NCBI GenBank assembly: GCA_010906965.1
Contig: JAAFHB010000001.1
Span: forward strand, 1 to 64,000
Origin: Mariniphaga sp.
GTDB taxonomy: Bacteria > Bacteroidota > Bacteroidia > Bacteroidales > Prolixibacteraceae
Direction of reading: 5' to 3'
DNA length: 64,000 nt
Under the pieces are notes generated by a model. It had not been told where the DNA came from and ran no database searches. It saw only the letters and a program-made list of their open reading frames with translations. This document shows, one piece after another, positions 44,301 to 64,000 of this stretch; positions within the stretch are counted from its first letter, which is position 1; each line of letters opens with the position of its first letter. Made by a program: the position numbers and the translations under genes.

Positions 44301-44389
44301 TGTTCTTTGAGTTCCTCAAGACAAAAGCCGGTTAAGTGTTTTTCGATGGCTGATTCGAGAGCTTGTTCGTTGGTTTGGCTGGTTGTCAT
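41339..44389 (-). CDS. hsdR: Type I restriction endonuclease subunit R
   Basis: Walker-like TYLIQHSAGSGKSNSITWAA, VIIDEAHSSQSG, SYLAFTATPKPNTLEKFG, FDQPKLTAMYVDKKLQGVMAVQALSRLNR. Confidence 0.97.
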   Translation of the reverse strand: MTTSQTNEQALESAIEKHLTGFCLEELKEQGIAGSAVTDRVELYRSGNGYYIGSPFDFNTKYAIDERRFWHFLETTQKEELAKLQKHSDWKLKILERLDRLMKKYGILRLLRKGLEIDDAHFTLFYQLPMASSSETVKNLFESNEFSVTRQLMYSIVNPKEEIDMGLFVNGLPFSTLELKNHWTGQNAKVHGQNQYKFKRDISQPLLNFGRCIVHFAVDTDEVYMTTKLNGADTFFLPFNLGHNFGKGNPPNPFGHKTSYLWDEVLTRQSIANIIQHFVRFDGKESDPLGKKTLFFPRYHQMDVVRKLIADASKKGVGQTYLIQHSAGSGKSNSITWAAYQLIETYPESDTVPGSKGISNPLFDSVIVVTDRRLLDNQLRDNIKDFSEVKNIVAPAYSSKELKANLESGKRIIITTIQKFPFIVDGIADLSDKRFAVIIDEAHSSQSGSAADNMNRAMGNNGNDEEDPDPQDKILEAMRSRKMKGNASYLAFTATPKPNTLEKFGIKQEDGKFKPFHLYSMKQAIEESFILDVLANYTTYRSYYEIEKSIEDNPLFDTAKAQKKLRAYVESDKQIITTKADIMLDHFLTKVVNPKKLKGKAKAIVATQNIESAIRYFFAIKGLLKEKGNPFKALIAFSGKKKVDGIEYSEDAINGFAEKDTRVKFDEDEYRILVVANKYLTGFDQPKLTAMYVDKKLQGVMAVQALSRLNRSADKLGKKTEDLFVLDFFNSTEDIRISFDPFYTSTTLNRATDVNVLHELKSNLDSVGVYEWSEVKDFVDKYFDNVNAQELSPIIDFAADRFNSGLELDNNEKADFKIKAKQFVKIYGQMAAILPYEVLKWEMLFWFLKFLIPKLVIEDPGKDAMDELLNSVDLSTYGLERVKLNVSIGLDATETELDPQNPNPRGAHGGDDDDDPLDIIILAFNERWFQGWEATPEEQRVKFVNLAQSMRTHPDFKEKYSENADTQNREIAFNKIFDEVMSKQRKSELDLYRLIAKDDAFKLAMQDTLKRILLAS

Positions 44390-46293
44390 TTTTTATTTTC
44401 CAGTAGTTGTTTTAATGTTAATCCCTTTTCTGTTAAGCGGTATTGTTGGTTTGGATTGAATCGATTATCCGGATCGGTCATTTCAATGAAACCGGCTTCC
44501 AAAGCGGGTTTCAGGTAATTTTCCCTGAAATTCGGATTGTGCCTTAAATCAAGTATTTGCATGAGTTCCTGGCGACTTTGCGACTTTGAAAGTACCATTA
44601 ACAGCCGTTTTACAAGTTCGTCTGCCTGGTCGGTTCCCTGGTCGGTAGCTTGGTCGGTAGCTTGGTCGGTTACTTGGTCGGTTACTTGGTCGGTTACTTG
44701 GTCGGTAATATAATCATTAAAAGTTTTGTTAATCTCTCCGTCGAACTGCTTCTGGCTCGATGCACGAGCCAATAAACTATTCTTTAATTCTATTCCCTTC
44801 AGGGTAATTCTGTATTTTTGATGTTGACTTTTTAATTTACCGGACAGTGTCATCTCGATAAAACCATCTGCCAGTGCAGGTTCTAAATAATTTTTCACAA
44901 AGTGTGATCTATTTCTCAATTCAAGAGCATCCATCAGATGAACCCGACTCATTTCATTTTCGATGATCATTACCAAACGCTGCGCTAGTACTGCTATATC
45001 GATATAAGTAACGTTTGCATCATAACTATTAGTAGTCTCATCATGTATGGTATCATGTATGGTATCATGTATGGTAACAGCTGAAGGTCTCCAAATTGTA
45101 AGTTTAAAACCTTCATCAAGTATGATAAGTGGTGGTTTTAAACCTCGTTCATTCATCAGCTTATACATTTCAAGAGTACCAGTACCATATCTTTCAATAT
45201 CACCGGTTAAAAACATACAACCGGCAAGCAGTGGATTATGCGGATAAGAACTATGAGGAACTTTAAGATCAGCTATATCCAATTCAGGAGGCAAACTGCC
45301 CGGATTACTGATTTCAATACGGTCTCTAAAAACCGAGACCTGAATACTTCCTTTACTGTAATAATCCCGATGGGCAACAGCATTTATAATAGCTTCAGCT
45401 ATTACAGCCCTCGGGATTTCATAAATTGTGTCAACCTGGTTGCTTATATCCCTGGTTCCGGTTGACAAGTTTAATTTTGACAAGATAAAATCTACTGCTT
45501 CATCGGCCACTTCGAAAACCGTACCTCCAAATTCTTTATAATCGGGAATGGGCTTTTGAACATGTACCCCATGAAAATGGGCACATTTTATGGTTGACGA
45601 AGGAAAGTACAATTGCGGATCGGGAGCAAAAGCCAGTAACGCACTGTTCACCAATTTACCTTCCCGTGTCATACGCAGGTGTGTTAAAACCTTTTCAACC
45701 GAGGCTGTATCTCTTAGCGGAAAGTTTCGCTTTTTACGGGCGATAGAAACAAACTCCCTGATCTTATTTTCATCAACTACCTTAAAATCAGCAGTCGGGT
45801 GCAAACTGTCATCGAAGTCGTGGCTTTCAATTTTGCCTGTCTGTTTTAAAAACCAAACACAGGAACTGAAAACTGCTTCTTTCAATGATTCGATATCAGA
45901 AAACTTCTTCCGGGAAACATCCTGTTCAATTTTCCGGATAAAAGCCGATTCTTTAGTGTGGCGCTCAATTCCTTTCATATCTTTAATGAAAATCCACCTG
46001 GGCAAATGCTTGTTTTTAGCCTGATCATACTCCCTCTCGGTAGGCGAAATGCCTTCCGAATCTTCATAACCATAGGTTTCGCCTAACAATCCGATATATA
46101 TATCCGAATCTACTACCTCGTTGATGTAAACTTTGCCGGGGGAGTGCGTATTGGCGGGTACCTCTTCGAACAAAAACGGCTCAAAAAAAGAACCCATTAA
46201 AGGATCATGCCTGAAATAACGGGCTAGTTGCATCCGCTCTTCGGCAAATTCGTTTTGCACACTCGATATGAAAATTTTTAGTTTTTTCACCAC
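44386..46293 (-). CDS. DUF4062 plus AlbA_2/divergent-AAA4-like ATP-binding protein with winged-helix C-terminus
   Basis: KLKIFISSVQNEFAEERMQLARYF (DUF4062); AVIAEAIINAVAHRDYYSKGSIQVSVFRDRIEISNPGSLP (RecG-like/COG2865 ATPase); repeat linkers; overlaps hsdR start by 4 nt. Confidence 0.85.
   Translation of the reverse strand: MVKKLKIFISSVQNEFAEERMQLARYFRHDPLMGSFFEPFLFEEVPANTHSPGKVYINEVVDSDIYIGLLGETYGYEDSEGISPTEREYDQAKNKHLPRWIFIKDMKGIERHTKESAFIRKIEQDVSRKKFSDIESLKEAVFSSCVWFLKQTGKIESHDFDDSLHPTADFKVVDENKIREFVSIARKKRNFPLRDTASVEKVLTHLRMTREGKLVNSALLAFAPDPQLYFPSSTIKCAHFHGVHVQKPIPDYKEFGGTVFEVADEAVDFILSKLNLSTGTRDISNQVDTIYEIPRAVIAEAIINAVAHRDYYSKGSIQVSVFRDRIEISNPGSLPPELDIADLKVPHSSYPHNPLLAGCMFLTGDIERYGTGTLEMYKLMNERGLKPPLIILDEGFKLTIWRPSAVTIHDTIHDTIHDETTNSYDANVTYIDIAVLAQRLVMIIENEMSRVHLMDALELRNRSHFVKNYLEPALADGFIEMTLSGKLKSQHQKYRITLKGIELKNSLLARASSQKQFDGEINKTFNDYITDQVTDQVTDQVTDQATDQATDQGTDQADELVKRLLMVLSKSQSRQELMQILDLRHNPNFRENYLKPALEAGFIEMTDPDNRFNPNQQYRLTEKGLTLKQLLENKK
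44626..44709. repeat. Seven tandem 12-bp units in the CDS (encodes TDQ-x repeats)
   Basis: CTGGTCGGTTCC CTGGTCGGTAGC TTGGTCGGTAGC TTGGTCGGTTAC x3 TTGGTCGGTAAT. Confidence 0.95.
45040..45075. repeat. Three perfect tandem 12-bp units in the same CDS (encodes HDTI repeats)
   Basis: ATCATGTATGGT x3. Confidence 0.95.
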
Positions 46294-46328: not shown

Positions 46329-47633
46329 TCACTCAGTTTTGCCCTCCTTTAATTCAGACTTCCAGGGGAAAATAGCCCAGCCATCTTTAGTAGAAGAGAT
46401 TCTACCTTCAAAACCAACAAGGTCTAAAACGTGTACAAGTAGGAAAACTTCTATTTGTACTTGCATTTCATACGCCTCTTTTGTGGAGAGATTAGGAGGA
46501 AACATCCCGGAGTGAGCCAGCGAATCCCTTAATTCTTTTACTTTTTCAAAGTCAATTTCAATTTTCCAATTATTTTGAATCAAGTGATCTTTTATTTTTC
46601 TCACAAAAGCGGTATCCCAAGGTTGTATTCTTGAAATACTTTTAACAATAGCATTTTGCTGTTCATCGGAGAATGAATCGGTATGTTCGTCAAAGAATGA
46701 TTTAGCCTGTTCTTTGAGAAAATATTTTAATTGCTTTAGAATACTTTTTATCTGAAGCGAATTGTCAGAATTTAAGTTTTCAAATACTGTTTTTTGTCCC
46801 AGCCTTTCTAAAGACGTTGTCAGCACTAGAAGCCCTGTTTCCATTAAACCGCAAGCAGCAGATGTTGCTAAGGCGTGTCCAATATCGATGATGCTTGTTT
46901 TATCGAACGAATCAATTGTTTCAAGTTTTTGTAGTCCTCTATTTAAATAGTCAGGATACTGATGGGTACTTTCCAGAATGTTGCTTCGCATTCCGAAGAG
47001 TTTACCCATCATCTTTTTTTTAGAATATATTAAAGTGTTATTATTGCACTTCATGTATCCAAAATAGACTTCAGAGGCTGTTAAAGGCCTAATTAAGAGA
47101 CATATATCTCGCAACAAGTCAATTGCACTATCAATTTCAAGCTCGCTTCCTGAAATTGTTACAAAATTACCCTCTGAAACAGTTCCCGACATTCGTATGG
47201 TTCTTTGAGCCAACTCTTGAGATGTTGATGATTTGGAGAAAGCAATCTCGTAATCCTTAAATTTAAAAGAGAATTCATGAGGAAAGTAAAATCCTAACAA
47301 AACTGTTTCAATTGTATGAATCGATTGCGATTCCCCAATCATTAGTTCGGAACAATTTGCCACCATAAGTGAATTTTGTTGATTGTAGTCTCCAAATAAA
47401 CAGCCATTACAAATACGTCCATCCTCAAGTTTTCCATTGAAAGTTGCTCCATCAAATTCATCAAAACAATGAAATGGGGAGTGAAATGAAATATATGCCT
47501 TAGCAGCATTACAAGTAATTTGAAATGGCAAGTCAAAATTCTTTTCGCCAAAATGAAAAGTACCATCTCCGCAGAAAACTGTAATTGGAACCTCTTTAGT
47601 GATTGTACTATATATTGAATCTGTTTCTTGCAT
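46329..47633 (-). CDS. Putative HEPN-domain (ApeA-like) protein
   Basis: C-terminal helical region with Rx4H motif in KELRDSLAHSGMFPPN; N-terminal beta-rich region; sits between hsdS and the DUF4062 gene. Confidence 0.55.
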   Translation of the reverse strand: MQETDSIYSTITKEVPITVFCGDGTFHFGEKNFDLPFQITCNAAKAYISFHSPFHCFDEFDGATFNGKLEDGRICNGCLFGDYNQQNSLMVANCSELMIGESQSIHTIETVLLGFYFPHEFSFKFKDYEIAFSKSSTSQELAQRTIRMSGTVSEGNFVTISGSELEIDSAIDLLRDICLLIRPLTASEVYFGYMKCNNNTLIYSKKKMMGKLFGMRSNILESTHQYPDYLNRGLQKLETIDSFDKTSIIDIGHALATSAACGLMETGLLVLTTSLERLGQKTVFENLNSDNSLQIKSILKQLKYFLKEQAKSFFDEHTDSFSDEQQNAIVKSISRIQPWDTAFVRKIKDHLIQNNWKIEIDFEKVKELRDSLAHSGMFPPNLSTKEAYEMQVQIEVFLLVHVLDLVGFEGRISSTKDGWAIFPWKSELKEGKTE

Positions 47634-47664: not shown

Positions 47665-49002
47665 CTAATTTACTTTTATTTTCCCCGTTACCGCACTATT
47701 TATCAAACTCGCCTTGTACTCCTTCAACTTCTCTATTTCCTGCTCTTTGAGCGAAATGGCAGTGGCGATTTTGGAAGTGATGGTTTCGATAAATTCTGAA
47801 ATTATGTTTTGCTCTTTTATTGCTGGAAATGGAATCTTAATATTTCCAATACTATTGGTCGAGATATTTGGTTGTTGACCAGTAATATCTATTTCTCTTT
47901 CAAACGATTGAACAAACAATGAATCTAAAATTATAAAGTAAATCCATTTCTTATTTAAATTTTCTAAAGGCTTTAAAACCGCATTTCTTTGATTCAATAA
48001 TATTTTAAAATCATCTTCTATGATTGTCGCTTTAATTCCAGTAGATATAATAGGACGGGTTAACGCAAAAACTAAATCATTTTTATTGACACGAAATTGA
48101 GGTAATTGATAATAGTATTTTTCATCAATAAAAGACTCATCTGACCAATCGGTCTTCATCGTTTGAATATTTGCAATCTTCATCACGCGTACGCCTTCAT
48201 CTTTAAATTCATTGCTATTAAAAGCATATCCATTAATAATTTTGCCGAGTTGTTTAATTTTCTTCACCTCCCAACCCTCCGGTATTTCCCCAATCCATTC
48301 CACGCCGCTGTCTTTTAGTTTTACGTCAGGATTTAAACCACGGGTAACAGCTTTGTGAATGAGTATTTGCCGGCGTTCTTTGAGCAAGTCTATTTGCTTA
48401 TCTTTGATGCCAATGGCTTGGTCGATCAAAGCGGTTTTGCGATCGAGAAAGGTGGCAATGGCAGTTTGCTCGGGAAGAGGAGGAACTAAAACTGTAACTC
48501 TTTTAAAATCTTCATAATGCATATCCCACTGTCCAACTCTGACTCCATAGGATATTCTATTATATTCACCGATATAGGAATTGCATCTAAGTAATCGATG
48601 AAGATATTCAGAGTAAATATTCTTAGAAGTAATTTTACATGTAATATATGCAGGACTGACAATTCCTTTAAAGGAACTGACCCCCATTGAACCTTGCCAG
48701 GCTTTCATTTTGTTGACAACTAAGTCGCCAGGCGCAACTGCTTTGTAATTAGTTTTGTCTAGTGAAGTGGCATTATGGTTATCATCCCGTGAATCTTTCT
48801 GAATTACTCCATATTCGCGATAAACTGATAAAACCTCAAAGTCAGGATGATTTTTATCACTTTTTAATTCCATTAAAGATACTAATGATACTGCCATCCA
48901 ATGTTCCGGAATTTCGCCCAACCATGCCTCTCCGGAGTGTTTGTAGGTGGGGTATTTGGGTAGGTTAATCATTGTCGAGTTCATATTTAATTTTGTCGGC
49001 AT
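47665..49002 (-). CDS. hsdS: Type I restriction specificity subunit S
   Basis: Two TRD-like halves: WLGEIPEHWMAVSLVSL...VPPLPEQTAIATFLDRKTALID and WIGEIPEGWEVKKIKQL...PAIKEQNIISEFIETITSKI. Confidence 0.96.
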   Translation of the reverse strand: MPTKLNMNSTMINLPKYPTYKHSGEAWLGEIPEHWMAVSLVSLMELKSDKNHPDFEVLSVYREYGVIQKDSRDDNHNATSLDKTNYKAVAPGDLVVNKMKAWQGSMGVSSFKGIVSPAYITCKITSKNIYSEYLHRLLRCNSYIGEYNRISYGVRVGQWDMHYEDFKRVTVLVPPLPEQTAIATFLDRKTALIDQAIGIKDKQIDLLKERRQILIHKAVTRGLNPDVKLKDSGVEWIGEIPEGWEVKKIKQLGKIINGYAFNSNEFKDEGVRVMKIANIQTMKTDWSDESFIDEKYYYQLPQFRVNKNDLVFALTRPIISTGIKATIIEDDFKILLNQRNAVLKPLENLNKKWIYFIILDSLFVQSFEREIDITGQQPNISTNSIGNIKIPFPAIKEQNIISEFIETITSKIATAISLKEQEIEKLKEYKASLINSAVTGKIKVN

Positions 49003-49948
49003 TAATTAATTGGCGCAATTCTTCTTCTTTTGGTAGGTATAAACGGTATTTGCTGGCAAATAACTTCTCATTTTCAGCCAGTACCGAATATTTCACAATG
49101 GTTTCATCTTTTTCAGTACACAGAATTAGCCCGATGGTTGGATTGTCGTCGTCACCCTTTTTCAAATCGTTGTACATACGAACATACATATCCATCTGGC
49201 CAATGGCTTCGTGGCTAAGCTTACAGGTTTTCAGGTCGATAAGCACAAAACATTTGAGGTAAAAGTTATAAAATACGAGATCGATAAAAAAATCGGAAGT
49301 GTCGGTTACAATGTGTTGTTGACGGGCAACAAAAGCAAAACCTTTGCCTAATTCCATTAAAAACAATTGCAAGTGGTTAATTAACGCAGTTTCAATGGTG
49401 TTTTCGGTATGCCGGGTTTCGACAGGCAAACCTAGAAACTCAAATATATAAGGATCTTTAATAATGTTTGCAGGTTTTTCATTTACGTCGGTCATGGGTT
49501 CAATTACCCGGCCTAAATACTGCGATGAAATATTCCGTTGTAAGGTTCGGGTATCCCAATTCCCCTCTGTTGCAAGTTGAATATAGCGATTCCGGGAGTC
49601 CGGCTTATCAATTCGACTTAGTATCCGATAATGTGTCCAACTCAATTTGGTACGCACCGCGTTCCAAATTGGGAAAGCCAGATAGAAAGCCCTGATGTTA
49701 TTCAGGTTTCTTTCGTCGAATCCTTTACCAAATTCGAGCGTTAATTGTTTACTTAGGTTTTTTAAAATAGATTTTCCATAAGCTGCTTTGTGTCTTCCCT
49801 CTTGCTCGTCTTCAACAATCAGGCACCCAATTTCCCAATACATTTTCAACAAAATAGCATTGTTGCTGCTATACGCAATCGATCGGGACTCGGCTATAAC
49901 AGCCGCAATTGAAGCAAGCAGCGAAGTATTATTTTCGAGTTTAGTCAT
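48965..49948 (-). CDS. DUF1016 (YhcG-type) PD-(D/E)XK nuclease-family protein
   Basis: MYWEIGCLIVEDEQEG, LSWTHYRILSRID, FFIDLVFYNFYLKCFVLIDLKTCKLSHEAIGQMDMYVRMYND. Confidence 0.93.
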   Translation of the reverse strand: MTKLENNTSLLASIAAVIAESRSIAYSSNNAILLKMYWEIGCLIVEDEQEGRHKAAYGKSILKNLSKQLTLEFGKGFDERNLNNIRAFYLAFPIWNAVRTKLSWTHYRILSRIDKPDSRNRYIQLATEGNWDTRTLQRNISSQYLGRVIEPMTDVNEKPANIIKDPYIFEFLGLPVETRHTENTIETALINHLQLFLMELGKGFAFVARQQHIVTDTSDFFIDLVFYNFYLKCFVLIDLKTCKLSHEAIGQMDMYVRMYNDLKKGDDDNPTIGLILCTEKDETIVKYSVLAENEKLFASKYRLYLPKEEELRQLINADKIKYELDND

Positions 49949-50026: not shown

Positions 50027-52375
50027 CTATGTCATGCTTAATATTTCACGAATTAAACCATCGCTCTCACTTTCCAAAGTCAGAATATCAGCCGAAACGT
50101 CTTCAATGCTTCGCAGTGGTTTGTGCCGGTAGAAGTATTTGTTAAAACTAATCTCGTAGCCTGTTTTGGTGGCATCAAGGTTAATCCAGGCTTCCGGAAC
50201 ATGGGGTTTTACTTCACGGAGAAAATAATTGTAGATGTTTTCTTTGAGTGGCACGTTTTCGGTGTCGCGCAAATCACTTTCTGTTTCGTATTCAATATAT
50301 TCGCCCTTTTTACCCGAGGCAAAATAACCAAAGTCAGCCAATTGGTTTACAGTACATCCCAAATGGCCGAGCAGTTGTTCCAGTTTTTCGCCCGTCAGTT
50401 TTGTAATGCCTTTTACCACTTTTTCTGCCGATGCATCGTACCAGCTTACCGCATTTAAAATGGCATTCTTTTCGGCAGGAGATACGTTGCTCTTCAAGGC
50501 TTTTGCTGCTTCATTCACTTTATCGCGGAAAAGATTATAGTCGTTGTACTCGTTGGTGCCAATTGCTTTCATGAGTTCGGTTGCCCTGGTCATCAAATCG
50601 AGTTGCTTTTGCCAGGTTGAAGCGCTCACCAATGCCCGGCTTTGTTTGGAATTCAGGTTCAGTTCCTGTTTTTCGCACCAATCGAGGATGGTTTTTTCGT
50701 ATTTTGAAAGTTGGGTATAAATAGCTGCTCCAAACTGTTCATACGCCCATTGCATTGGTTCCCGCAACGATTTGTCAAAGCGTAATTCAGCAATTCGTTC
50801 TGCGGTAAATTGCGCTTTCAGTCGTTTGGGGCGCTCAATGCTGACTTTATAATAACCAAAATCTTTATTGTCAAATATTTGTGAAGCAATCCCTTCTTCA
50901 CCGGTGCGCTCAATTGTTTTCATCCCGGAATACACCGAAACTATTTCATGGATATGTTCAGGAGCAAATTCGCAGTTTTTGTTCCCGAGGTTTTTGCGGA
51001 GTTTGCGGTAAAGCTGTCCGGCATCAATCAACTGAACTTTACCTTTTCTGCCGGGCATTTTACTGTTGCTCAATATCCACACATAGGTAGTAATCCCTGT
51101 GTTGTAAAACAAATTGTTGGGCATCTGCACAATGGCTTCCAGCCAATCGTTTTCGATGATGTACCTCCGGATATTGCTTTCGCCGCCACCGGCATCGCCC
51201 GTAAACAGGCTCGATCCATTGTGAACTGAGGCAATCCGTGAACCCGCCGGACTTTGTTTTAATGTCTTCATTTTATTAACCATCTCCATCAGAAACAACA
51301 ACTGTCCATCCGAAGAGCGGGGTGTTGCATCGGCATCTTCTTCAATACCCCAGTAGTTTTTTAGCTTGACCTGGAAACGGGGATCGATAATCTCCTTCCC
51401 GTCTTTGATGTATTTTTGCTCGCTTGCCCACGATTTCCCGTAAGGCGGATTCGAAAGCATAAAGTCGAATGTTGTTCCGGCAAATTCATCGGTAGATAGG
51501 GTCGAACCAACACGGATATTCTCAGGATTGTTGCCCTTGATCATCATATCAGATTTGCAGATCGCATAAGTTTCGTCATTGATCTCTTTCCCATACAAAT
51601 AAACATCGCCTTTTGCACAAATTTCACCTTCGTCGTCCTTGATAAAGTTTTGAGATTCGGTAAGCATACCGCCGCTTCCGCAAGCCGGGTCGTAGATGGT
51701 CATTACAGGTGGCAATTTGTCTTTTACCGGTTCGAAAATAATATGTGTCATAAGGTCGATCACCTCACGCGGGGTAAAGTGTTCTCCGGCTTCTTCGTTG
51801 TTTTCTTCGTTGAACTTACGGATCAATTCTTCAAACACATAGCCCATTCCCAGATTAGAAAGTGGTGTTAATTTTCTTCCATCCGGGTCTGATTTCTCAA
51901 ATGGGGTTAGGTTGATATGTGGCGAAGTAAATTTCTCCAATACATCCAAAAGCACATCTTTCGAGGCCATGTGCCTGATCTGGCTTTTGAGATTAAATTT
52001 ATCAATGATCTCTTTGACATTGTCGCTAAAGCCGTTCAGGTAATTCTCAAAATTTGCCTGGAGAATTTGCTGGCTGTTGGTTGCGGTGTCGCACAATCGT
52101 TGTAATGTCCATTCGCTGGTGTTGTAAAACACATAACCAGATACATCACGAAGGCCCTTTTCGTCCCACTCAATAAACTTGGCATCATCTCGTTGGAAAA
52201 CCAGTTCTTCCATTACAGCATCTTTGGTCGGCTCAAGCAGGGCATCCAATCGGCGAAGAACAACCATTGGAAGTATTACGTCACGGTATTTACCGCGCAC
52301 ATAAACATCTCTCAAACAGTCGTCTGCGATTGACCAGATAAAGGAAACTATTTTATTGTGTGAAGCTGAATTCAT
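50027..52375 (-). CDS. hsdM: Type I restriction methyltransferase subunit M
   Basis: HFTPREVIDLM, TIYDPACGSGGMLTE, FDFMLSNPPYGKSW (NPPY motif). Confidence 0.98.
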   Translation of the reverse strand: MNSASHNKIVSFIWSIADDCLRDVYVRGKYRDVILPMVVLRRLDALLEPTKDAVMEELVFQRDDAKFIEWDEKGLRDVSGYVFYNTSEWTLQRLCDTATNSQQILQANFENYLNGFSDNVKEIIDKFNLKSQIRHMASKDVLLDVLEKFTSPHINLTPFEKSDPDGRKLTPLSNLGMGYVFEELIRKFNEENNEEAGEHFTPREVIDLMTHIIFEPVKDKLPPVMTIYDPACGSGGMLTESQNFIKDDEGEICAKGDVYLYGKEINDETYAICKSDMMIKGNNPENIRVGSTLSTDEFAGTTFDFMLSNPPYGKSWASEQKYIKDGKEIIDPRFQVKLKNYWGIEEDADATPRSSDGQLLFLMEMVNKMKTLKQSPAGSRIASVHNGSSLFTGDAGGGESNIRRYIIENDWLEAIVQMPNNLFYNTGITTYVWILSNSKMPGRKGKVQLIDAGQLYRKLRKNLGNKNCEFAPEHIHEIVSVYSGMKTIERTGEEGIASQIFDNKDFGYYKVSIERPKRLKAQFTAERIAELRFDKSLREPMQWAYEQFGAAIYTQLSKYEKTILDWCEKQELNLNSKQSRALVSASTWQKQLDLMTRATELMKAIGTNEYNDYNLFRDKVNEAAKALKSNVSPAEKNAILNAVSWYDASAEKVVKGITKLTGEKLEQLLGHLGCTVNQLADFGYFASGKKGEYIEYETESDLRDTENVPLKENIYNYFLREVKPHVPEAWINLDATKTGYEISFNKYFYRHKPLRSIEDVSADILTLESESDGLIREILSMT

Positions 52376-52427: not shown

Positions 52428-53384
52428 TTAAGGATTAAGAGGATTAAACCCGTCTTTTAAGACTAATTTATCTGCATAATCTGAGAATTGCAGATATTGA
52501 ATTTCAATATCCGGCGATAACTTTTCATTTAATAATCCAACCAATTCTTTATCAATTAACAGATGAAGTTTAGGTGCAAGAAAATAGGCATTAATACCCT
52601 TACTCTTTGCTATTTTATCAAGATCCGGATCTGATTTTTCATGTTTAAACCGACCGCTCTGGACATTTTGCATAATACAGTAGTAAAAGTACAATTCAGT
52701 AATGATGCCTACTTTATTGTTGGCGTGTGCCTTCAGTTCGAAAAGCAGAAGCTCATTGTTTTTACTAATGCCCCATATGTCAATGGCACTTTTAAGTCGG
52801 GGAAAGATGGAGGTTAATTTTGATACGGATTTTTTGAAGACACCTACTGGCAATTGCCGGTTTAAGTAATCTGCATTTGTTTTCAATTTTAAGGGATCTG
52901 CCCAATCTCCTTTTGAAAATTTATCCTCAAGTATGCTCTCAGCGCCTTGCGGAATATTTTTATCCCTATTATTGGATGGCGAATTCAGGTAATAAGTTTC
53001 TGATTCATTAATTATCAAGGCAGTCAGATAGGGGATGCAATTTGATTTTATTTCAAACCACGAATTAAAGTCTTTGGAGAAATTAGTTGCCCGAAACAGG
53101 AACCGCTGATAATGGCCATTATCTGGTAAATTATTGAGATCCCACGAAAGAATTACTTTATCAAACTTCCCCCACCGCTTTAATACGAGCGCCCATCCTT
53201 CAAATGCGGCAGCGTCGTCCTGCATATTTTTCTCAACAGATTTTGACGAAATATGCATTTCTACATCATTGCCGACAATTGTAAACTCAATATCACGCGG
53301 CAGCCTGATATTATTGGACTTATTTCCTTCTAAGTTAAAGGTGGCTTTTATTCTTTTAAGAACATCCGTTCGGTCATTACTCAT
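52428..53384 (-). CDS. Hypothetical protein with candidate PD-(D/E)XK nuclease core
   Basis: KSAIDIWGISKNNELLLFELKAHANNKVGIITELYFYYCIMQ: D...ExK pattern followed by an alpha-helix, in a defence context. Confidence 0.5.
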   Translation of the reverse strand: MSNDRTDVLKRIKATFNLEGNKSNNIRLPRDIEFTIVGNDVEMHISSKSVEKNMQDDAAAFEGWALVLKRWGKFDKVILSWDLNNLPDNGHYQRFLFRATNFSKDFNSWFEIKSNCIPYLTALIINESETYYLNSPSNNRDKNIPQGAESILEDKFSKGDWADPLKLKTNADYLNRQLPVGVFKKSVSKLTSIFPRLKSAIDIWGISKNNELLLFELKAHANNKVGIITELYFYYCIMQNVQSGRFKHEKSDPDLDKIAKSKGINAYFLAPKLHLLIDKELVGLLNEKLSPDIEIQYLQFSDYADKLVLKDGFNPLNP

Positions 53385-53395
53385 TTGATTGTTTT

Positions 53396-54643
53396 TTAAA
53401 GTAGATATTCTTTCCCGTCTTCCCAGATTTCAACATTTGCAAAGCCCTCTTTTTCAAGATACTGCTTCATTTTATCCGGGCATTCTGTATGGATTGGAAC
53501 AATCTTAAGAGGATTGATTGCCATGACAAGCATTTTAATATCGGTCAAAGTTGCATGGCCGCTTGTGTGAATTAGCTCAAAATCGACCTTCCCTGATGTG
53601 TTCAAATCAATAATCGAATCACTGCAATACGTTTTGTGTCCATCTTCCAGGTAACCTTCATATTGTGAGTAAACTAATTTGATTACTCCTTTGGGCAATA
53701 ATGCTTCAATTAATTTCTGATTTGGGCAGCGTAAAAAATAGACAAACTCCTTTGGATTTTGAAAGATTTGATTGCCAATATCTTTCTTAATCACCCGATC
53801 CTTAAAGTCGCTAAATTTCGGATCACTAATCCTGGACAACTGGCTCGGATGATTGTAAACACAGATTGTCTCCCAATCGATGGTAGGCAATCCTTTCGAT
53901 TTTTCATGAACGACTTCTAAAGCCCAGGCATTGTATATGTCAATGATCAGTCTCTTCTTATGCGAATTACAAGCTTTCACAACCGAAACCAGGCGATCGA
54001 TATTCTGTGCCGAACTAACCACAAATGTTGCGTTCTCCTGATCTTTTATAATAGTGGAGATGGCTTCATAGACTGATTGTTCTGTGGGGTATTTTTGATT
54101 TGAACGTTCCACCATTGTACCTTCAGTCAAAAATAGATCAATGTTCTTAGGTGGTTCTTGTAGTAATTTGTAATAAAGCTTATTTTTCCAACCAGTTGAC
54201 CTGAAGTCCCCGCTATAGAACAGGCGCTTACCATCCGCCTCGATAACAAAAGCAAAAGCTTCAGGAGAAGAGTGATCCATCAGGTAAGGATAGACCTTGA
54301 AGGTATTTAGGACTATAAATTCTTTCCAGGGTTGGAAAAGGATGAAATTTGATTTGGGGGATTCTTTCCCAAGGAAGATTTTCGTTGCGGATATCAGGCC
54401 TAGCGATACCTGGCCAATATAAACTGGTACGTCAGTTCCAACATTTTCCATCAGCCCATAATGATCCTGGTGCGGATGCGATATAATCAAAGCATCGACA
54501 TTGTTAGCGGTATAACTTACATCCGGATTCACTGTACTCAGCGGTTCACCAAGATCAAGCCATAATACCTTCCCATTATCAGCAGTTAATTCAACACAGT
54601 TACCCCCAATTTCATGGGTGCCACGATAGATTTTGACTTTCAT
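53396..54643 (-). CDS. MBL-fold metallo-hydrolase (RNase J / beta-CASP-like)
   Basis: RGTHEIGGNCVELTADNGKVLWLDLG; DALIISHPHQDHYGLMEN (HxHxDH); FYSGDFRSTGW; IHTSGHATLTDIKML. Confidence 0.85.
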   Translation of the reverse strand: MKVKIYRGTHEIGGNCVELTADNGKVLWLDLGEPLSTVNPDVSYTANNVDALIISHPHQDHYGLMENVGTDVPVYIGQVSLGLISATKIFLGKESPKSNFILFQPWKEFIVLNTFKVYPYLMDHSSPEAFAFVIEADGKRLFYSGDFRSTGWKNKLYYKLLQEPPKNIDLFLTEGTMVERSNQKYPTEQSVYEAISTIIKDQENATFVVSSAQNIDRLVSVVKACNSHKKRLIIDIYNAWALEVVHEKSKGLPTIDWETICVYNHPSQLSRISDPKFSDFKDRVIKKDIGNQIFQNPKEFVYFLRCPNQKLIEALLPKGVIKLVYSQYEGYLEDGHKTYCSDSIIDLNTSGKVDFELIHTSGHATLTDIKMLVMAINPLKIVPIHTECPDKMKQYLEKEGFANVEIWEDGKEYLL

Positions 54644-54774
54644 TTAAAAAAGGTGAGATGTAAGTCTTTTGTACCGTAATTACACGAAAGACGATTGTCT
54701 TCGAAATATATTAAATCAAAAATTTTGTTACTAGAAAGCTCAAGCTCGAGTTTAAAAATCTCCGAAATTGTCAT
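54640..54774 (-). CDS. Unlisted 44-aa small ORF, overlapping the MBL start
   Basis: MTISEIFKLELELSSNKIFDLIYFEDNRLSCNYGTKDLHLTFFK*; its TGA (54640-54642) overlaps the MBL ATG (54641-54643) as ATGA. Confidence 0.5.
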   Translation of the reverse strand: MTISEIFKLELELSSNKIFDLIYFEDNRLSCNYGTKDLHLTFFK

Positions 54775-54974: not shown

Positions 54975-55871
54975 TCAGTATTGCTTCAAAGCATTCTTAT
55001 AGGTTGCTTTCACTTGCTGAATTAAAATTTCAGGCTGAATGACTTTTACATTTTCACCATATTTGAGGATTTCCTGTAGAAAATCATGTGTCAGATAGAC
55101 CTTTAGTTTAATGCGGACTTCATCTGCATTGTCAACAATAACTTGCTGGGTTTCGTGCAGCGGCAATGATTTTATGTATTTTCCCTGGAAAGCATCGAAC
55201 TGAAGAATAACTTCGTGTAGTTCATGGTCGGTCGGACTAATTATTCCGAAGCAAAACTTGTAATATTCATTGATATCGAAGGTTTTTGAAGGTTTAAACC
55301 GGGTTTTGGAAATCTCCAGTTGGGATAAGCGGTCCAGAGCGAAGCTTTTAATCTGTCCGTCCTTCAAATCTTTGGCGAGCACATACCAGCGGTTGCTGAA
55401 TTCTTTCAACGCATACGGCTCAACAGTCCGATGGGTGATTTCATCCTCCCAGTATTTCTGGTAGGTAAATGAAATTCGCAGGTTATTTGTTATTGAATGA
55501 AGCAACCCATTTAGATTTTCAGTTCCCTGTGGCTTGCGTTTTTCAAATTGAATGGACCGGAAACTGCTTTCAGCCATTTTCAGCGCATTAAAAGTATCCA
55601 ATGCCTCCATTCTGCGTTTGCTTACTTCCGATAGTTCTTCTTCATTGATGGCGTAAACCTTCAGTTTAAAATCATAATTGATTTCAATATCGTTTATCGA
55701 ACAAATATCCTGCAGATCCCGTTGGAACTGCCGCTTTGAGATATTTAAATCATACCCCTGCATTTCAGACTGCCTTTTAAGATAAGCATCAATCTGCTCA
55801 AAAGTGGCAGGTCCCATTTTGAGTTTATTCAGGATGTGCATGTTGCGTAAGAATAATTCCCGTTTTGCCAT
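54975..55871 (-). CDS. WYL-domain transcriptional regulator
   Basis: N-terminal winged-helix-like region; WYL-type RTVEPYALKEFSNRWYVLAKDLKDGQIKSFALDRLSQLEIS. Confidence 0.92.
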   Translation of the reverse strand: MAKRELFLRNMHILNKLKMGPATFEQIDAYLKRQSEMQGYDLNISKRQFQRDLQDICSINDIEINYDFKLKVYAINEEELSEVSKRRMEALDTFNALKMAESSFRSIQFEKRKPQGTENLNGLLHSITNNLRISFTYQKYWEDEITHRTVEPYALKEFSNRWYVLAKDLKDGQIKSFALDRLSQLEISKTRFKPSKTFDINEYYKFCFGIISPTDHELHEVILQFDAFQGKYIKSLPLHETQQVIVDNADEVRIKLKVYLTHDFLQEILKYGENVKVIQPEILIQQVKATYKNALKQY

Positions 55872-56839: not shown

Positions 56840-57475
56840 ATGCACATAACCTGTATTTCTGATACTCATGGTTTGCACCGGCAACTAAAGCTTTCTCCAG
56901 GTGATCTGCTGATTCATGCAGGTGATATTTCGGAATATGGAACAGAAGAGGAGATATTTGATTTTACCCGTTGGTTTTCCCGGCAACATTTTACCAATAA
57001 AATCTTTATTGGAGGGAATCATGATCTGTTCCTTGAAACTATTTCCGTAAAAGCCTTCCGGAAACTGATAGGAAACGATATCATTTATCTTCAAAATAGT
57101 GTGGTAACGATTGAAGGACTGAAAATTTATGGATCTCCAGTAAATCAATCGGTGATGGGAATGGCTTTTGGCAAAAGCAAAGGGGCTGAAATCAGACGCG
57201 AATGGCGCAAAATTCCTACAGAAGTAGATATTTTAATCACCCATGAAGCTCCTTTAAGCATTTTGGATAATGGAAAAGGTTGTCCTGATTTGAAAATCAG
57301 ATCGGAAGTAATCAAACCAAAACTTCATGTTTTCGGTCATGTACATGATATCAACGGAGTAATTCAACAAGGAGATACCCTGTATGTAAATGCTGCACTT
57401 TGCGGCAATCAGGATGTCCTCCAGATGAGGCCGAAATTTACCAATAAACCGGTGATAGTGGACTTGCTGAGATAA
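56840..57475 (+). CDS. Metallophosphoesterase
   Basis: CISDTHGLH, LLIHAGDIS, FIGGNHDLFLE, ILITHEAPL, HVFGHVHDINGV. Confidence 0.95.
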   Translation: MHITCISDTHGLHRQLKLSPGDLLIHAGDISEYGTEEEIFDFTRWFSRQHFTNKIFIGGNHDLFLETISVKAFRKLIGNDIIYLQNSVVTIEGLKIYGSPVNQSVMGMAFGKSKGAEIRREWRKIPTEVDILITHEAPLSILDNGKGCPDLKIRSEVIKPKLHVFGHVHDINGVIQQGDTLYVNAALCGNQDVLQMRPKFTNKPVIVDLLR

Positions 57476-57861: not shown

Positions 57862-58518
57862 TCAATTGAGTTGCTGGCGTTCAATAATATGAGGATAGTT
57901 ATTTTTGAAGATGGTGTAAAACTGTTCATTACCTTGCCTGAATACCTCTGGAACTGACATTCTTACAGTTTCTTCAATAAACTGGTTGTGATCGAAGAAC
58001 AGCACATTTTCATTACTTGCGAGTTCTCTCATTTTCAGACTGGCATATTCATTTACCGAACGCCCTTCAGCCTTTACCGGAAGACTGCAGATTGCCAGGT
58101 AGCTTTTCTTCTCTGACTGCAGGTATTTCAGAAGGTTACTGATTAAACCCGTTCCGACGGAAGAACCAAGTCCGGTTAAAATAATATAGGAATCGTTTTC
58201 TTTGAATAAATTCTTCATCTGGTTTGTGAGCGGTAGTCTTTCCCGGTAACGAATCCCATTCACCCGAAAATCCTGCATCGATTCAAAAAATAGATAATCA
58301 ATATCTCGGGTGAGGTGCGACACATAAGAACTTGCAATACATGAATATTTTGCATCAATCCCCTTTTTATGGATATTCACCATCGCATTTGTTCCGGCCT
58401 GACCCAGTCCAATAAAATGCAATCGGGTTCCGTCCGGATTTCCTGAAACTTTAATATCCGGCATTAACATCATGACTCCTAAAGCAGCGAGTCCTTTTAT
58501 CATTTCACGTCTTTTCAT
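57862..58518 (-). CDS. FtsZ/tubulin-like GTPase-domain protein with Tat-like leader
   Basis: MKRREMIKGLAALGVMMLMPD twin-Arg leader; LHFIGLGQAGTNAMVNIHKKGIDAKY; SYIILTGLGSSVGTGLISNLLKYLQSEKKSYLAICSLPVKAEGRSVNEYASLKMREL resembles FtsZ GGGTGTG and flanks. Confidence 0.65.
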   Translation of the reverse strand: MKRREMIKGLAALGVMMLMPDIKVSGNPDGTRLHFIGLGQAGTNAMVNIHKKGIDAKYSCIASSYVSHLTRDIDYLFFESMQDFRVNGIRYRERLPLTNQMKNLFKENDSYIILTGLGSSVGTGLISNLLKYLQSEKKSYLAICSLPVKAEGRSVNEYASLKMRELASNENVLFFDHNQFIEETVRMSVPEVFRQGNEQFYTIFKNNYPHIIERQQLN

Positions 58519-58934
58519 TTTGACACTTTTTTTAGTGATTGTATCAACGAAAGTAGTCTGAGGGTGCGCCAAAGGATGACGTAGTTAAAAAATTTAATTG
58601 TGGAAACTTCCCATATTGAATTTTTAACGGCGGCGAGCGACGCGCTTCGAAAACAGGCTTATAATTTAGTCACTAAAAGCTTGCCATTTCTCAAGAAGCG
58701 AAGTATCATATATAATCTCTTCATTGTAATAACTTTAACTGTTTGTATATTATGGATAAAAACAACATTTTTTGTTCTGAAGTATTATTAATTTACAAAC
58801 AATTAATAACAAATATTAAACTGATTAAATGTCTATGAATCGTTAAATCAAATTATTAAATTTGGCGTCACAATATTTTGTTCAAATTTCATTTGTTTTG
58901 CCAAAATGCGGCAACTAAATCAAAAAACTTAAAC

Positions 58935-61900
58935 GTGAAAGTAGATTTCCATAAAATAATAATTTCATTTAATTTGGGAATCCGATATTGCTCTTTGATT
59001 CTGGTTATGCTATTAGGTGAAGTTGCAAATGGACAACCTTGTAACCTTATTGTCAATGCGGGAAATGATGTTTCAGTCTGTATTGGTTCTTCAATTACAT
59101 TAACAGCCATTTCAACCGATGCAGTTAATCCTGGAGCGGTCACCTATAAATGGGACTCCAACCCAGGCTTAAGTAATGAAAACATCGCGAATCCAGTTGC
59201 TAACCCTTCTTCAGCAACGACCTACAAGGTTACTGCGACAGAAGGTACTTGTACAGCAACAGACGAAGTAGTCGTTACTGTAAATCCACTGCCGGTGATT
59301 GATTTTACTTTTACAAATGACAATGCTTGTTCGGGTACTGTTGTTCAATTTACCTCTTCAGTTTCTTTAGGTACTGCACCTTTTTCTTATAAATGGAACT
59401 TTGGCGATTCATCTACATCAACTGATAAGAATCCTTCTCATGTGTTTTCTTCATTGGGCTGTGGCAATGGCACATTCACTGTTGAATTGACCGTGAAAGA
59501 TAAAAACGGATGTGAGAGTATAATTAAGAAGACGATATTCGTTAAACAACAACCGGATGTGAATTTTGAGGATGTTAATGCTTCAGGACCGGTAAACCAG
59601 TTTAGTAATTGTCAAAATGCTTCAGCATCTAATCCGAATTACATGATCACAGTTGGCAATACCTCTGTAAGTTCTTGTGCCACTTTTTCCGTTAATTGGG
59701 GCGATGGAAACTCTGAATCCAATATTACTTTCCCTAAATCACACACTTATTCGCAGTTAGGTGCATATAATATGGCTATTACTGCATTAGGAACAAATGG
59801 GTGCAGCACATCTAAAACCTATGTCATTAAAAATGTTTCAAATCCTTCAGGAGGAATTAATAGCCCGGGAAGTACACAGAATTTATGTATTCCAACGGCT
59901 GCAATACTATTTACAATTTCAAATTGGGACACGAATTCGCCAGGAACAACTTATTCAATTGATTACGGTGATAATTCTCCGTTATTGAATTTAACCCAAA
60001 GTCAATTAGAAAGCTCTCCGTATTACCACACACCGCTGGACGGTACATCTGCAAATTATCCAATTCCTTACTCCTACACAACAAATAGTTGTCCAAATGC
60101 TCAATTTACTGCAACATTAACAGTTACAAATGCTTGCGGAATTACAAAAGGAACAATTTCAAACATTACTACGATATCAAAGCCAACTGCAGATTTTACT
60201 GCTTCACAATATGCATGTAAAGGATCAAATGTTTTGTTTACCAACAAATCAAATTTAGGGTTTGACACCAACTGTTCAAGACAAACAAAATATAAATGGG
60301 ATTTTGGAGATTTAACTCCTACTCAAACAACCGGATGGACAACTAATACGGATAATATTTCACACGTCTTTTCAACCCCTGGAAATTATACCGTTACGCT
60401 TACATCTCTGAACAGTTGTGGAGAAACGACAAAAACTCAACAAATTTGCATCGAATCAGGAGTCACACCAATATTTTCATTAAATAATATTCAATACTGT
60501 TTACCATTGATAGTTACAGCAATCAATACGACCAATATAACAGATGTTTGTACCAGTGTTAGTTACTTTTGGCAGGTTACTTATTCAAGCAGTAATTGCG
60601 GAACTTCACCAGCTTATACATTTACAAACGGAACCAATGCAACCTCAAAAGATCCATCTTTTCAATTCACAAATTCTGGCACTTACGCTATAAAATTATT
60701 AGCTACGAACGGATGTGGTACGTTTACGAGTCCTGCACAAATAGTGACGGTAATGCAGCCTCCAACCGTCTCTATTGCAAACATATCAGCAATATGTCAA
60801 TCCCTTCCTTCAACAATAATTAATCCGTCAGCTACCGTTAACAGCTGTACTCCTGTGCTTAATACTTTAAGCTATGCCTGGAGTTTTCCAGGTGGCAACC
60901 CGGCATCTTCAGTTGACGAAAACCCTGGACCAGTTACCTATGATTCACCTGGCGACTATTTGGTGACATTAACCGTTACCAATGAGTGTGGTCCAACTAC
61001 TGCAACGAAACTATTCACGATAAAAACTGTACCAATATTAACTAATCCGCCATTAGATCAAACTATTTGCGCTGGCACTCAAGTGGCATTAGTAAACTTA
61101 ACTTCAAATACTCCCGGTACATTTTTCTCATGGACTGTTTCTGCCTCTCCAGGAATCACTGGCTATGCAATAGCAGGATCGGGTTCAGCCATTCCTGCAA
61201 GCACAATCAACAGTACAAATGCGACGCAAGAAACTGTAACCTATAATATTACTCCTTCAATTGGAGGATGTAGCGGAAATGTAACAACTTATACGATCAA
61301 AGTCAACCCAAAACCGGTTGTTACCTACACACCGAACAGTCAGACCATTTGTTCCGGACAACAGACAGCTCTGGTGACGTTAAATTCAAATGTAAGCGGA
61401 GCCGATATAGAATGGACGGTAAATCCAGTCCCGATAGCTGTTGTTGGTTTTACTGCAAACGGAACTTCAACCATTCCTGTCCAGACAATCACGAACAGCG
61501 GAACTACACCTAAAACTATTTCTTATCATATTGTTCCGTCTTTAAATGTGGGATTGAGTTGCCCGGGAACTCCTGTTGATTATAACATCACGGTCAAACC
61601 ATTACCTGTTATAATTGCAACGCCTGCATCTCAGTCGATATGTTCCGAAACTATAACTACGCCAATTAGGTTGGAATCAAATCTATCAGGAACCACCTAT
61701 TCATGGACAACAACTTCATCCCCGGGAATTACCGGAGCACCGTCAAGTGGTTCCGCTAACCCAATACCTTCATGGAAATTATTCAATGCAGAACCATTAA
61801 CAGGAACGGTTACGATAACTGTAACACCAACATCAAATGGCTGCGAGGGAATCCCTTATATTTATAAGATCGAAGTTAGTTCTAAACTGATAGTTAATAG

Positions 61901-64000
61901 CCCGATAAATCAAACGATTTGTTCGGGAGGGCAATCTGCTCAGGTAGATCTGACCGCTAACATTACCGGTGCAAATTTTACATGGACTGCGTCTTCAACT
62001 CCGGGAACAACGGGATCTAACGCAATTGGAACAGATATAATTGAGTCAAAAACGCTTTTAAACTCAACATTTGTAGACGGGGTTATAACCTATGTAATAA
62101 CGCCGAAGTTAGTCGGTTGCAACGGCAGTCCATTAAATTATACTGTCACCGTAAGGCCTGTAGCGAATGTTTCCAATAGTCCGATGATCAAAACGATTTG
62201 CTTAGGGAGCAATACCGCCGTAATTCTTACATCTAATGTTTCAGGAACGAGTTTCGACTGGTCAGCCTCAAACACAATTGGAACTGTCTCGGGTTTTTCA
62301 CTAACTGGCTCTGGCAATATAAATGATGTTTTAACTAATACAGGAACAATAGCGGGGAAGGTCAGTTATACAATAACTCCAAAGGCGAATGGATGTGTGG
62401 GTTTGCCGGTAAATTATGACATAACTGTCCAACCGGTTGCACACGCTACGCCCAATCCTTTAAGTCAATTAATATGCTCAGGGACAAAAAGTTCCGATGT
62501 AAACCTTGCATCTGACGTTTCTGGAACAATTTTCAGATGGACGGCTAATGCCTCTCCCGGTATTACAGGATTTACACCGTCAGGGAATGGGAATATAATT
62601 GCTGGAAGTTTGATTAAAAACACGCTTTCAACGCCGGGTAAAGTCACTTATTCAATTATACCATCAATTGGTGGCTGCGATGGGGTAATAGCAACGCATA
62701 TTATAACAGTAAATCCGAGTCCGAGGGTAATCAATTCTTTGGCACAGACAATCTGCTCCGGAAACTCGACGACTTTAGTGACATTGGGATCAGATGTCCC
62801 TGGCACTACTTTTAGTTGGAATGTATCGCCGGTGCCTTCATCTAATATTGTGGGAAACTTACAAAATGGAATAGGGAATATTGCTTCGCACCAGATTTCA
62901 AATAATGGAGCAATTGCAGAACATGTAATCTACCATATTATTCCGACTTCCGACATGGGACTCTCATGTAACGGAATTGAAGCAGATTATACAGTAACAG
63001 TAAATCCTTTACCTGTTGCGCAAGCCATTCCAGCCACTTCTGTGATTTGCTCTGGAGAATTTACAAGCATTAGATTGACATCAAATTTAAATAATATAAC
63101 ATACAGTTGGACTATTGAATCAGCTTCAATTGCGGTCGAGGGAGCGACAGATGGGAGCGGTTCCGTTATTTCGCAAAAATTAATAAATAGTTCAGCTGAA
63201 TCAGGGAATGTGAAATATAAGGTAATTCCCAAAGTTGGTATATGTGAGGGAGTTGCATTTTATGCCGAAATCACGGTTAATCCAAGACCTTCCCCTGATA
63301 TTATTGGTAATAGCAGTAATTGTTTGGGTAACGAGGTATATCGCACAGAAGCGAACATGTCAAATTACGTTTGGTCAGTTTCTTCTGGCGGAATAATTAA
63401 CACTGGGCAAGGTACTTTTAAGATATCCGTTAAATGGGAAAATCCTGGAAACCAAACTGTGAGTATCAATTATAAAAATTCATTTAGTTGCAATGCTGCA
63501 CCACCTGCCGTCAAAGATGTTAAAGTTAATCCAGATTTGCCGGTAAGAGTGACGATTACTCCCGATATGAATAATGTCTGCCCGGGCACAGAGGTCACAT
63601 ATCGTGCAACTCCTGATAATGGAGGACTCAACCCTGTTTATGAGTGGAAGGTTAATGGCATTGTTGCATCAACTAATGGATCTTCCTATACTTATGCGCC
63701 GATAAATGGCGATAAAATTGATTGCCAGCTTACCTCCAATGCAATATGCCCGGTAGAAAATCCGGCAAAGTCAAATGTCGTTTCAATGGTGGTTTATTCC
63801 AATTTACCAGCAACCGTTTCAATTATCGAAAACATTAACAATGTTTGTCCAGGAGATAATGTATCTTTTTTTGCGACCCCTTCCAACGAAGGGAGCAATC
63901 CAAATTATCAATGGTTTGTAAATAGTACAAAGGTTGGAAGTAACCTACCTGTTTTTAACTATAATCCGGTTAATAACGATGTAGTGACCTGTCTACTCAT
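58935..64000 (+). CDS. Giant PKD/PKD-like repeat surface protein, incomplete at right edge (>=1688 codons)
   Basis: Manual translation from GTG 58935 stays open to 64000: VKVDFHKIIISFNLGIRYCSLILVMLLGEVANGQPCNLIVNAGNDVSVCIGSSITLTA... PKD units (YKWNFGDSSTSTDKNPSHVFSSLG) then repeated TICSG...GTxFSW...PGITG...VTYxITP...GCxG...YxITVNPxP modules. Confidence 0.92.
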   Translation, partial: MKVDFHKIIISFNLGIRYCSLILVMLLGEVANGQPCNLIVNAGNDVSVCIGSSITLTAISTDAVNPGAVTYKWDSNPGLSNENIANPVANPSSATTYKVTATEGTCTATDEVVVTVNPLPVIDFTFTNDNACSGTVVQFTSSVSLGTAPFSYKWNFGDSSTSTDKNPSHVFSSLGCGNGTFTVELTVKDKNGCESIIKKTIFVKQQPDVNFEDVNASGPVNQFSNCQNASASNPNYMITVGNTSVSSCATFSVNWGDGNSESNITFPKSHTYSQLGAYNMAITALGTNGCSTSKTYVIKNVSNPSGGINSPGSTQNLCIPTAAILFTISNWDTNSPGTTYSIDYGDNSPLLNLTQSQLESSPYYHTPLDGTSANYPIPYSYTTNSCPNAQFTATLTVTNACGITKGTISNITTISKPTADFTASQYACKGSNVLFTNKSNLGFDTNCSRQTKYKWDFGDLTPTQTTGWTTNTDNISHVFSTPGNYTVTLTSLNSCGETTKTQQICIESGVTPIFSLNNIQYCLPLIVTAINTTNITDVCTSVSYFWQVTYSSSNCGTSPAYTFTNGTNATSKDPSFQFTNSGTYAIKLLATNGCGTFTSPAQIVTVMQPPTVSIANISAICQSLPSTIINPSATVNSCTPVLNTLSYAWSFPGGNPASSVDENPGPVTYDSPGDYLVTLTVTNECGPTTATKLFTIKTVPILTNPPLDQTICAGTQVALVNLTSNTPGTFFSWTVSASPGITGYAIAGSGSAIPASTINSTNATQETVTYNITPSIGGCSGNVTTYTIKVNPKPVVTYTPNSQTICSGQQTALVTLNSNVSGADIEWTVNPVPIAVVGFTANGTSTIPVQTITNSGTTPKTISYHIVPSLNVGLSCPGTPVDYNITVKPLPVIIATPASQSICSETITTPIRLESNLSGTTYSWTTTSSPGITGAPSSGSANPIPSWKLFNAEPLTGTVTITVTPTSNGCEGIPYIYKIEVSSKLIVNSPINQTICSGGQSAQVDLTANITGANFTWTASSTPGTTGSNAIGTDIIESKTLLNSTFVDGVITYVITPKLVGCNGSPLNYTVTVRPVANVSNSPMIKTICLGSNTAVILTSNVSGTSFDWSASNTIGTVSGFSLTGSGNINDVLTNTGTIAGKVSYTITPKANGCVGLPVNYDITVQPVAHATPNPLSQLICSGTKSSDVNLASDVSGTIFRWTANASPGITGFTPSGNGNIIAGSLIKNTLSTPGKVTYSIIPSIGGCDGVIATHIITVNPSPRVINSLAQTICSGNSTTLVTLGSDVPGTTFSWNVSPVPSSNIVGNLQNGIGNIASHQISNNGAIAEHVIYHIIPTSDMGLSCNGIEADYTVTVNPLPVAQAIPATSVICSGEFTSIRLTSNLNNITYSWTIESASIAVEGATDGSGSVISQKLINSSAESGNVKYKVIPKVGICEGVAFYAEITVNPRPSPDIIGNSSNCLGNEVYRTEANMSNYVWSVSSGGIINTGQGTFKISVKWENPGNQTVSINYKNSFSCNAAPPAVKDVKVNPDLPVRVTITPDMNNVCPGTEVTYRATPDNGGLNPVYEWKVNGIVASTNGSSYTYAPINGDKIDCQLTSNAICPVENPAKSNVVSMVVYSNLPATVSIIENINNVCPGDNVSFFATPSNEGSNPNYQWFVNSTKVGSNLPVFNYNPVNNDVVTCLL
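61039..63290 (+). repeat. About eight PKD-like protein repeats (~270-300 bp each)
   Basis: Unit starts near QTICAG, QTICSG, QSICSE, QTICSG, KTICLG, QLICSG, QTICSG, SVICSG in the same frame. Confidence 0.85.

Follow-up and report, generated by a model that had tools for sequence, protein, structure and literature searches.

An RNase J-like metallo-β-lactamase (MBL) fold hydrolase and a PD-(D/E)XK nuclease are encoded side by side across many phyla, a linkage that recurs beyond chance. The MBL is the constant member, and its partner belongs to one of at least six sequence families, which share a catalytic core and little else. We judge it about an even call that the two form a two-nuclease module, a constant RNase J-like MBL with an exchangeable PD-(D/E)XK nuclease, that acts jointly against invaders. 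The pair is described here from the window, a stretch of 64,000 nucleotides of a Mariniphaga sp. genome, where the original prediction had placed a candidate unit of three genes.

RESULTS

Layout of the locus in the window

The genes of the unit lie on the minus strand. In the order of transcription, they are a WYL/WCX-domain helix-turn-helix regulator (positions 54975 to 55871; Pfam WYL, 9.5e−16, plus WCX), a 44-aa ORF missing from earlier listings (54640 to 54774), the 415-aa MBL, an RNase J-like metallo-β-lactamase/β-CASP hydrolase (53396 to 54643), and its 318-aa PD-(D/E)XK nuclease-like partner of family B (52428 to 53384). On the same strand follow the type I methyltransferase gene hsdM (50027 to 52375), a YhcG/DUF1016 PD-(D/E)XK nuclease (48965 to 49948; PADLOC PDC-S02), hsdS (47665 to 49002), a 434-aa protein inside the restriction-modification (R-M) operon with a weak Apea-like HEPN match (46329 to 47633), a protein with DUF4062 and RecG-type ATPase domain matches (44386 to 46293), and an hsdR-like gene. 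The regulator gene is 200 nt upstream of the 44-aa ORF, whose stop codon shares the sequence ATGA (54643 to 54640) with the start of the MBL gene, just as had been predicted. The MBL and nuclease genes are 11 nt apart rather than the 12 nt first given, and hsdM starts 52 nt downstream of the nuclease gene, in agreement with a unit just upstream of hsdM.

With type I R-M, YhcG, and DUF4062-ATPase genes as its flanks, the unit sits inside a defense island. The adjacent hsdM is a member of the type I R-M operon on this flank and not of the MBL-nuclease pair, and proximity to hsdM is not a general feature of the module. Within this operon the YhcG/DUF1016 gene stands between hsdM and hsdS and overlaps hsdS, and the 434-aa HEPN-like protein is a candidate RNase effector. 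The DUF4062-ATPase protein has two Fic-like C-terminal domains with a TDQVTDQ repeat tract in between. Elsewhere in the window, a 236-aa protein (57862 to 58572, minus strand) is an odd FtsZ-like protein that matches Tubulin/FtsZ GTPase at 5.8e−10 and begins with what looks like a twin-arginine signal, and a repeat-rich PKD-like surface protein of at least 1,707 aa (58878 to 64000, plus strand) runs off the end.

The MBL is a distinct relative of RNase J

The second gene had been called RNase J-like, and Pfam, NCBIfam, and structure-profile matches agree. Pfam finds Lactamase_B_2 and RMMBL domains (RMMBL, 2.9e−6, above its cutoff), and a profile built from 20 MBL relatives retrieves, among known structures, EF2904 first (4e−39), followed by RNase J, CPSF/IntS11, and Cas14. 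The predicted HPHQDH motif is present as the HxHxDH motif at residues 56 to 61, and H124, D146, EGT (174 to 176), HTSGHA (359 to 364), and H385 complete the set. The motifs that define the MBL/β-CASP superfamily (HxHxDH, H, D, and C-terminal SGH/PxH) were found in 107 of 107 sequences. The RNase J metal ligands H56, H58, D60, H61, H124, D146, H363, and H385 are invariant in 107/107 relatives, as is H359. Because every metal ligand is kept, the MBL is expected to be catalytically active.

The protein shares the MBL fold and the HxHxDH, H, D, SGH, and PxH motifs with RNase J and EF2904 (PDB accession number 2az4). It differs from RNase J in being shorter (415 aa), in its link to a nuclease, and in its absence from most genomes of the order. 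Against the RNase J model TIGR00649 it scores 82.3 bits, where the cutoff is 400, and the MBLs of loci L121 and L137 are likewise below that cutoff (53.8 and 68.5 bits). Score, distribution, and context led us to reject a housekeeping RNase J, and the MBL is a distinct RNase J-like family and not RNase J proper. A search of the window genome for a second RNase J-like match of comparable strength gave none.

The window partner is a predicted PD-(D/E)XK nuclease

A nuclease-like core, IDIWGI...LLLFELKA, had been proposed for the third gene and is found as AIDIWGI...LLLFELKA, with D202, E216-L-K218, E230, and Y234 as the residues of note; D202, E216, K218, and Y234 are invariant in the family B alignment. 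An AlphaFold2 model made from six sequences (pLDDT 85.1, pTM 0.86) has a C-terminal half consisting of a helix, strand 171 to 179, strand 200 to 207 with D202, strand 211 to 217 with E216, helix 226 to 242, and a further strand, so that the partner is predicted to adopt the α-β-β-β-α-β order of PD-(D/E)XK proteins. The nuclease fold is thus present in the model. The top PDB matches of the model in Foldseek include NucS/EndoMS, Shedu SduA, and Card1, at borderline E-values of 0.0014 to 0.014, and all three are PD-(D/E)XK enzymes. Alignment, model, and Foldseek matches support the proposed core, and with its catalytic Asp, Glu-x-Lys, and core fold the window partner is a predicted PD-(D/E)XK nuclease.

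Sequence searches with the window partner gave no match in Pfam, NCBIfam, or PADLOC, a chance match only in the PDB, and nothing among plasmids by tblastn; a scan of viral contigs for family B found no relative. The family is rare, being present in 9 of 393 genomes of the order and 1 of 396 of the phylum sample. It adjoins the MBL in seven other loci from several phyla (L058, L074, L077, L082, L111, L125, and L184), and in a Deltaproteobacteria metagenome-assembled genome the MBL and a family B nuclease are naturally fused into one protein of 759 aa (L121:6980-9259). Family B is also found where there is no MBL. Such genes stand between hsdM and hsdS in genomes G041 and G065 (L040 and L041), accompany WYL genes (L185 and L186), or adjoin a family D gene on a contig of 5.9 kb (L039/L183). 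In L185 and L186, which represent one chromosomal site in two genomes, the family B domain is part of a protein of ~600 aa encoded next to a WYL regulator. The L039 and L183 contigs match each other, come from two genomes, and also carry an HU-like gene; they are perhaps a small plasmid or a shared contaminant.

The MBL and a nuclease are kept together

MBL relatives were drawn from plasmids, the order, GTDB genomes, and IMG/VR. In GTDB, at least 555 MBL loci from at least 18 phyla were confirmed with one pattern, and the best 80 of these at least 555 were used; removal of near-duplicates left 110 MBL loci in all. A PD-(D/E)XK gene lies beside the MBL in 88 of the 110 (80%), recognized in 81 by six hidden Markov model families on the same strand and in 7 by motif alone. 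The 81 divide into families A1 (27 loci), A2 (23), D (10), B (8), C (7), and E (6). No partner was visible in the remaining 22 loci, some of which are at contig ends. The spacing between MBL and partner clusters at −4 nt, the commonest gap. The rate of the nuclease motif is 65% among adjacent ORFs (72 of 111) and 4.4% among distant ones (26 of 585; Fisher P = 6e−47), a comparison that is a partial control only, several families having been first recognized beside the MBL and the motif written afterwards. Within the order the MBL family is sporadic (25 of 295 genomes, ~8%). It also occurs on plasmids, and tblastn with the MBL gave no match in 50,697 phage records.

The gene neighborhood survey therefore bears out the conservation of the combination for the MBL and the nuclease, in 88/110 loci, and reduces the proposed three-gene unit to a conserved core of two genes, the 44-aa protein being without a homologue. 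None of 20,000 first-order Markov sequences modeled on the region contained an ATG ORF of at least 44 codons in that frame; the 44-aa ORF is thus unlikely to have arisen by chance and may be coding, and it may be a real local gene. Searches for relatives of its product found none in 119 genomes, so that the trio as such is not conserved, and Pfam, NCBIfam, and PADLOC gave no match. The sister MBL in genome G287 has no 44-aa ORF, and an unrelated 115-aa ORF takes its position. Lacking a homologue and absent beside the sister MBL in G287, the ORF is ruled out as a conserved third component, and its product lies outside the conserved module. Other loci have different small ORFs upstream of the MBL. 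A protein of 130 to 150 aa with the pattern GIFW...PRGR...HY and no Pfam match recurs near the MBL, mainly in Proteobacteria (L005, L006, L007, L010, L043, L061, L064, L072, L128, and L134), and is a possible third component in these Proteobacteria-dominated loci.

The partner is exchanged between families

HHalign relates families A1, A2, and E to one another (96 to 99.5%) and C to D (90%), and aligns family B with the other partner families at the core only. The catalytic D and E-x-K are kept in nearly all members of all six. For one family A member an AlphaFold2 model was built (pLDDT 89), and its Foldseek matches, all weak (E > 0.3), include the Shedu nuclease domain, BstEII, FokI, and HamA; Pfam PDDEXK_9 matched family A at 0.0035, and PADLOC matched no model to five family A partners.

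On a tree of 107 MBLs, the superfamily of the partner changes at least 24 times, versus 23 with shuffled labels, and with six-family labels there are 38 changes versus 45.7. Phylogenetic coupling of the partner family to the MBL, tested on this tree, is therefore close to random. The exact numbers of exchanges are rough because the tree is of a quick kind with many open forks and its rows were picked by MBL similarity. Close relatives point the same way. The MBLs of the window and of G287 are sisters with 58% identity, and the partners, of family B in the window and family A in G287, occupy the same downstream place; L074 and L081 are another couple of sister MBLs with differing partner families. 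Together, the tree and the sister MBLs show that the kept unit is this MBL plus some PD-(D/E)XK nuclease, and that the partner has frequently been exchanged.

Regulators and defense genes in the neighborhood

A WYL gene is present in 27 of 109 MBL loci and in none of 20 control windows, all taken from the window's order (P = 0.006). WYL regulators such as BrxR/CapW are tied to defense loci (PMC12255303), and the WYL regulator of the window is a candidate transcriptional regulator of the MBL-nuclease unit. The PADLOC models matched among 149 close neighbors include WYL, IetA, Azaca, PD-Lambda-5, JetA, and a type II methyltransferase. Defense models are modestly enriched near the MBL: 251 PADLOC models were matched for 140 genes versus 96 for 123 control genes, a rough control counted by model and not by gene; we judged this count too coarse as a measure of defense. 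Homologues of the window's own defense genes, WYL excepted, are not enriched near MBL loci, and many of these loci have ordinary neighbors. UDG-superfamily and DNA polymerase III α genes lie near some. The pair has no self/non-self component, for example a dedicated methyltransferase, as a regular companion. In L011, L053, and L056 the MBL is immediately followed by a metallophosphoesterase. The window also encodes a member of this metallophosphoesterase family (56840 to 57475, plus strand); given its divergent orientation and its distance of 2.2 kb, the link is weak, and we rejected it as a third component. Overall, a defense setting of the MBL-nuclease loci is likely.

Comparison with named systems

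The original prediction recognized no named defense system in this combination, and the pair is unnamed in the libraries searched: the MBL, its window partner, and the 44-aa protein match no family of PADLOC-DB 2.0, and no PADLOC-DB 2.0, Pfam, or NCBIfam model names the pair. In plasmid records the partner genes are annotated as "hypothetical protein." Our search of open-access papers found no description of the pair.

Shedu is a single-gene system. Its nuclease SduA (DUF4263), like Card1 and NucS, has the PD-(D/E)XK catalytic core in common with the window partner, which in contrast to Shedu has no Pfam or PADLOC Shedu match and is adjoined by an MBL gene. The 6A-MBL anti-phage system (NF058524) also has an MBL-fold protein, but the window MBL reaches only 11.8 bits against its cutoff of 220; the open-access papers searched contained no description of that system.

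Among published ideas, the one that comes nearest is the trypsin-MBL module of Hachiman, AVAST, Lamassu, and DRT systems (PMC12799240), in which, as here, an MBL-superfamily nuclease is repeatedly associated with a second gene and has been acquired by many genomes. However, the MBL of that module is ComEC-like and activated by a trypsin-like protease (PMC12799240), whereas ours is RNase J-like and has a nuclease partner; no trypsin-like protease was found beside the MBL among the profiled window neighbors. Cas14 of type VII CRISPR-Cas is a β-CASP effector (PMC10910872) and thus, like the MBL, a β-CASP nuclease in a defense setting, with a weak profile match (5.4e−7). The window MBL nonetheless scores 28.3 bits against a Cas14 (NF045584) cutoff of 800, and no CRISPR neighbors were seen among those profiled.

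DISCUSSION

What does the pair do? Sequence comparison shows genes that recurrently overlap or lie close together, a natural fusion of the two, a catalytic site left intact in each protein, and a partner that is often exchanged. That two intact nucleases, of which one is constant and the other exchangeable, stay linked is best explained if they act jointly on a single nucleic acid, and we infer that both proteins act together on the same phage or plasmid nucleic acid.

The pair could instead serve the host as a nucleic acid repair or RNA/DNA processing module made of a β-CASP exonuclease and a NucS/EndoMS-like PD-(D/E)XK endonuclease. The nearest relatives of the two proteins, RNase J/CPSF/SNM1-type enzymes and NucS/EndoMS, would suit such a role, as would the UDG-superfamily and DNA polymerase III α genes among some neighbors and the lack of another comparably strong RNase J-like match in the window genome. 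However, housekeeping repair genes are not usually distributed like an MBL that is present in only ~8% of the order and on plasmids, and the partner turns over faster than the MBL tree can track; we consider a host module unlikely. A toxin-antitoxin or addiction role, in which one of the two proteins, be it nuclease or MBL, would be a toxin restrained by the other, sometimes with help from a small protein encoded upstream, for example the 44-aa one or the 130- to 150-aa one of Proteobacteria, would account for the overlapping genes, the sporadic spread, the plasmid location, and the small upstream ORFs, as well as for the family D and B nucleases found side by side on small contigs. Yet both partners have complete catalytic sites, which an inhibitory antitoxin would not need, and antitoxins usually coevolve closely with their toxin, whereas here the partner is swapped between families unrelated outside the core. 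A toxin-antitoxin pair is, in our view, distinctly unlikely.

The remaining alternative concerns the window nuclease, which might belong to the type I R-M operon and lie beside the MBL incidentally. That hsdM follows after 52 nt, and that family B stands between hsdM and hsdS in G041 and G065 where there is no MBL, speaks for this. We nevertheless hold it to be very unlikely, given that family B is the neighbor of the MBL in seven further loci of several phyla and its fusion partner in L121, that the window nuclease is nearer to the MBL (11 nt) than to hsdM, and that downstream of the sister MBL in G287 this position is taken by a family A nuclease.

Returning to joint action against invaders, the chemistry of the two enzyme classes suggests an order of events. 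PD-(D/E)XK enzymes leave 5′-phosphate ends, and RNase J/SNM1-type β-CASP enzymes start at such ends and degrade in the 5′-to-3′ direction; the partner would therefore cut and the MBL chew. In this "cut, then chew" scheme, the partner would recognize and cut invader nucleic acid, its variable N-terminal domain probably setting the target, and the MBL would degrade from the 5′-phosphate end made by the partner; in some loci the WYL regulator would control expression. Recognition, substrate, and target are what we infer here from the enzyme classes. The wider reading, that of a widespread unnamed immune system in which a conserved MBL and an exchangeable nuclease from at least six families destroy invader nucleic acid cooperatively, with specificity or effector swapped like a cartridge, we put somewhat short of an even chance.

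Should the inference hold, a two-nuclease system has gone unnoticed in hundreds of genomes from at least 18 phyla. Its profiles are simple enough for defense-finding tools to take up already, and with one MBL joined to many partners it can be tested cleanly whether the target is set by the PD-(D/E)XK half. RNase J-like β-CASP enzymes, which we found in defense only as Cas14, would then join the parts of bacterial immunity.
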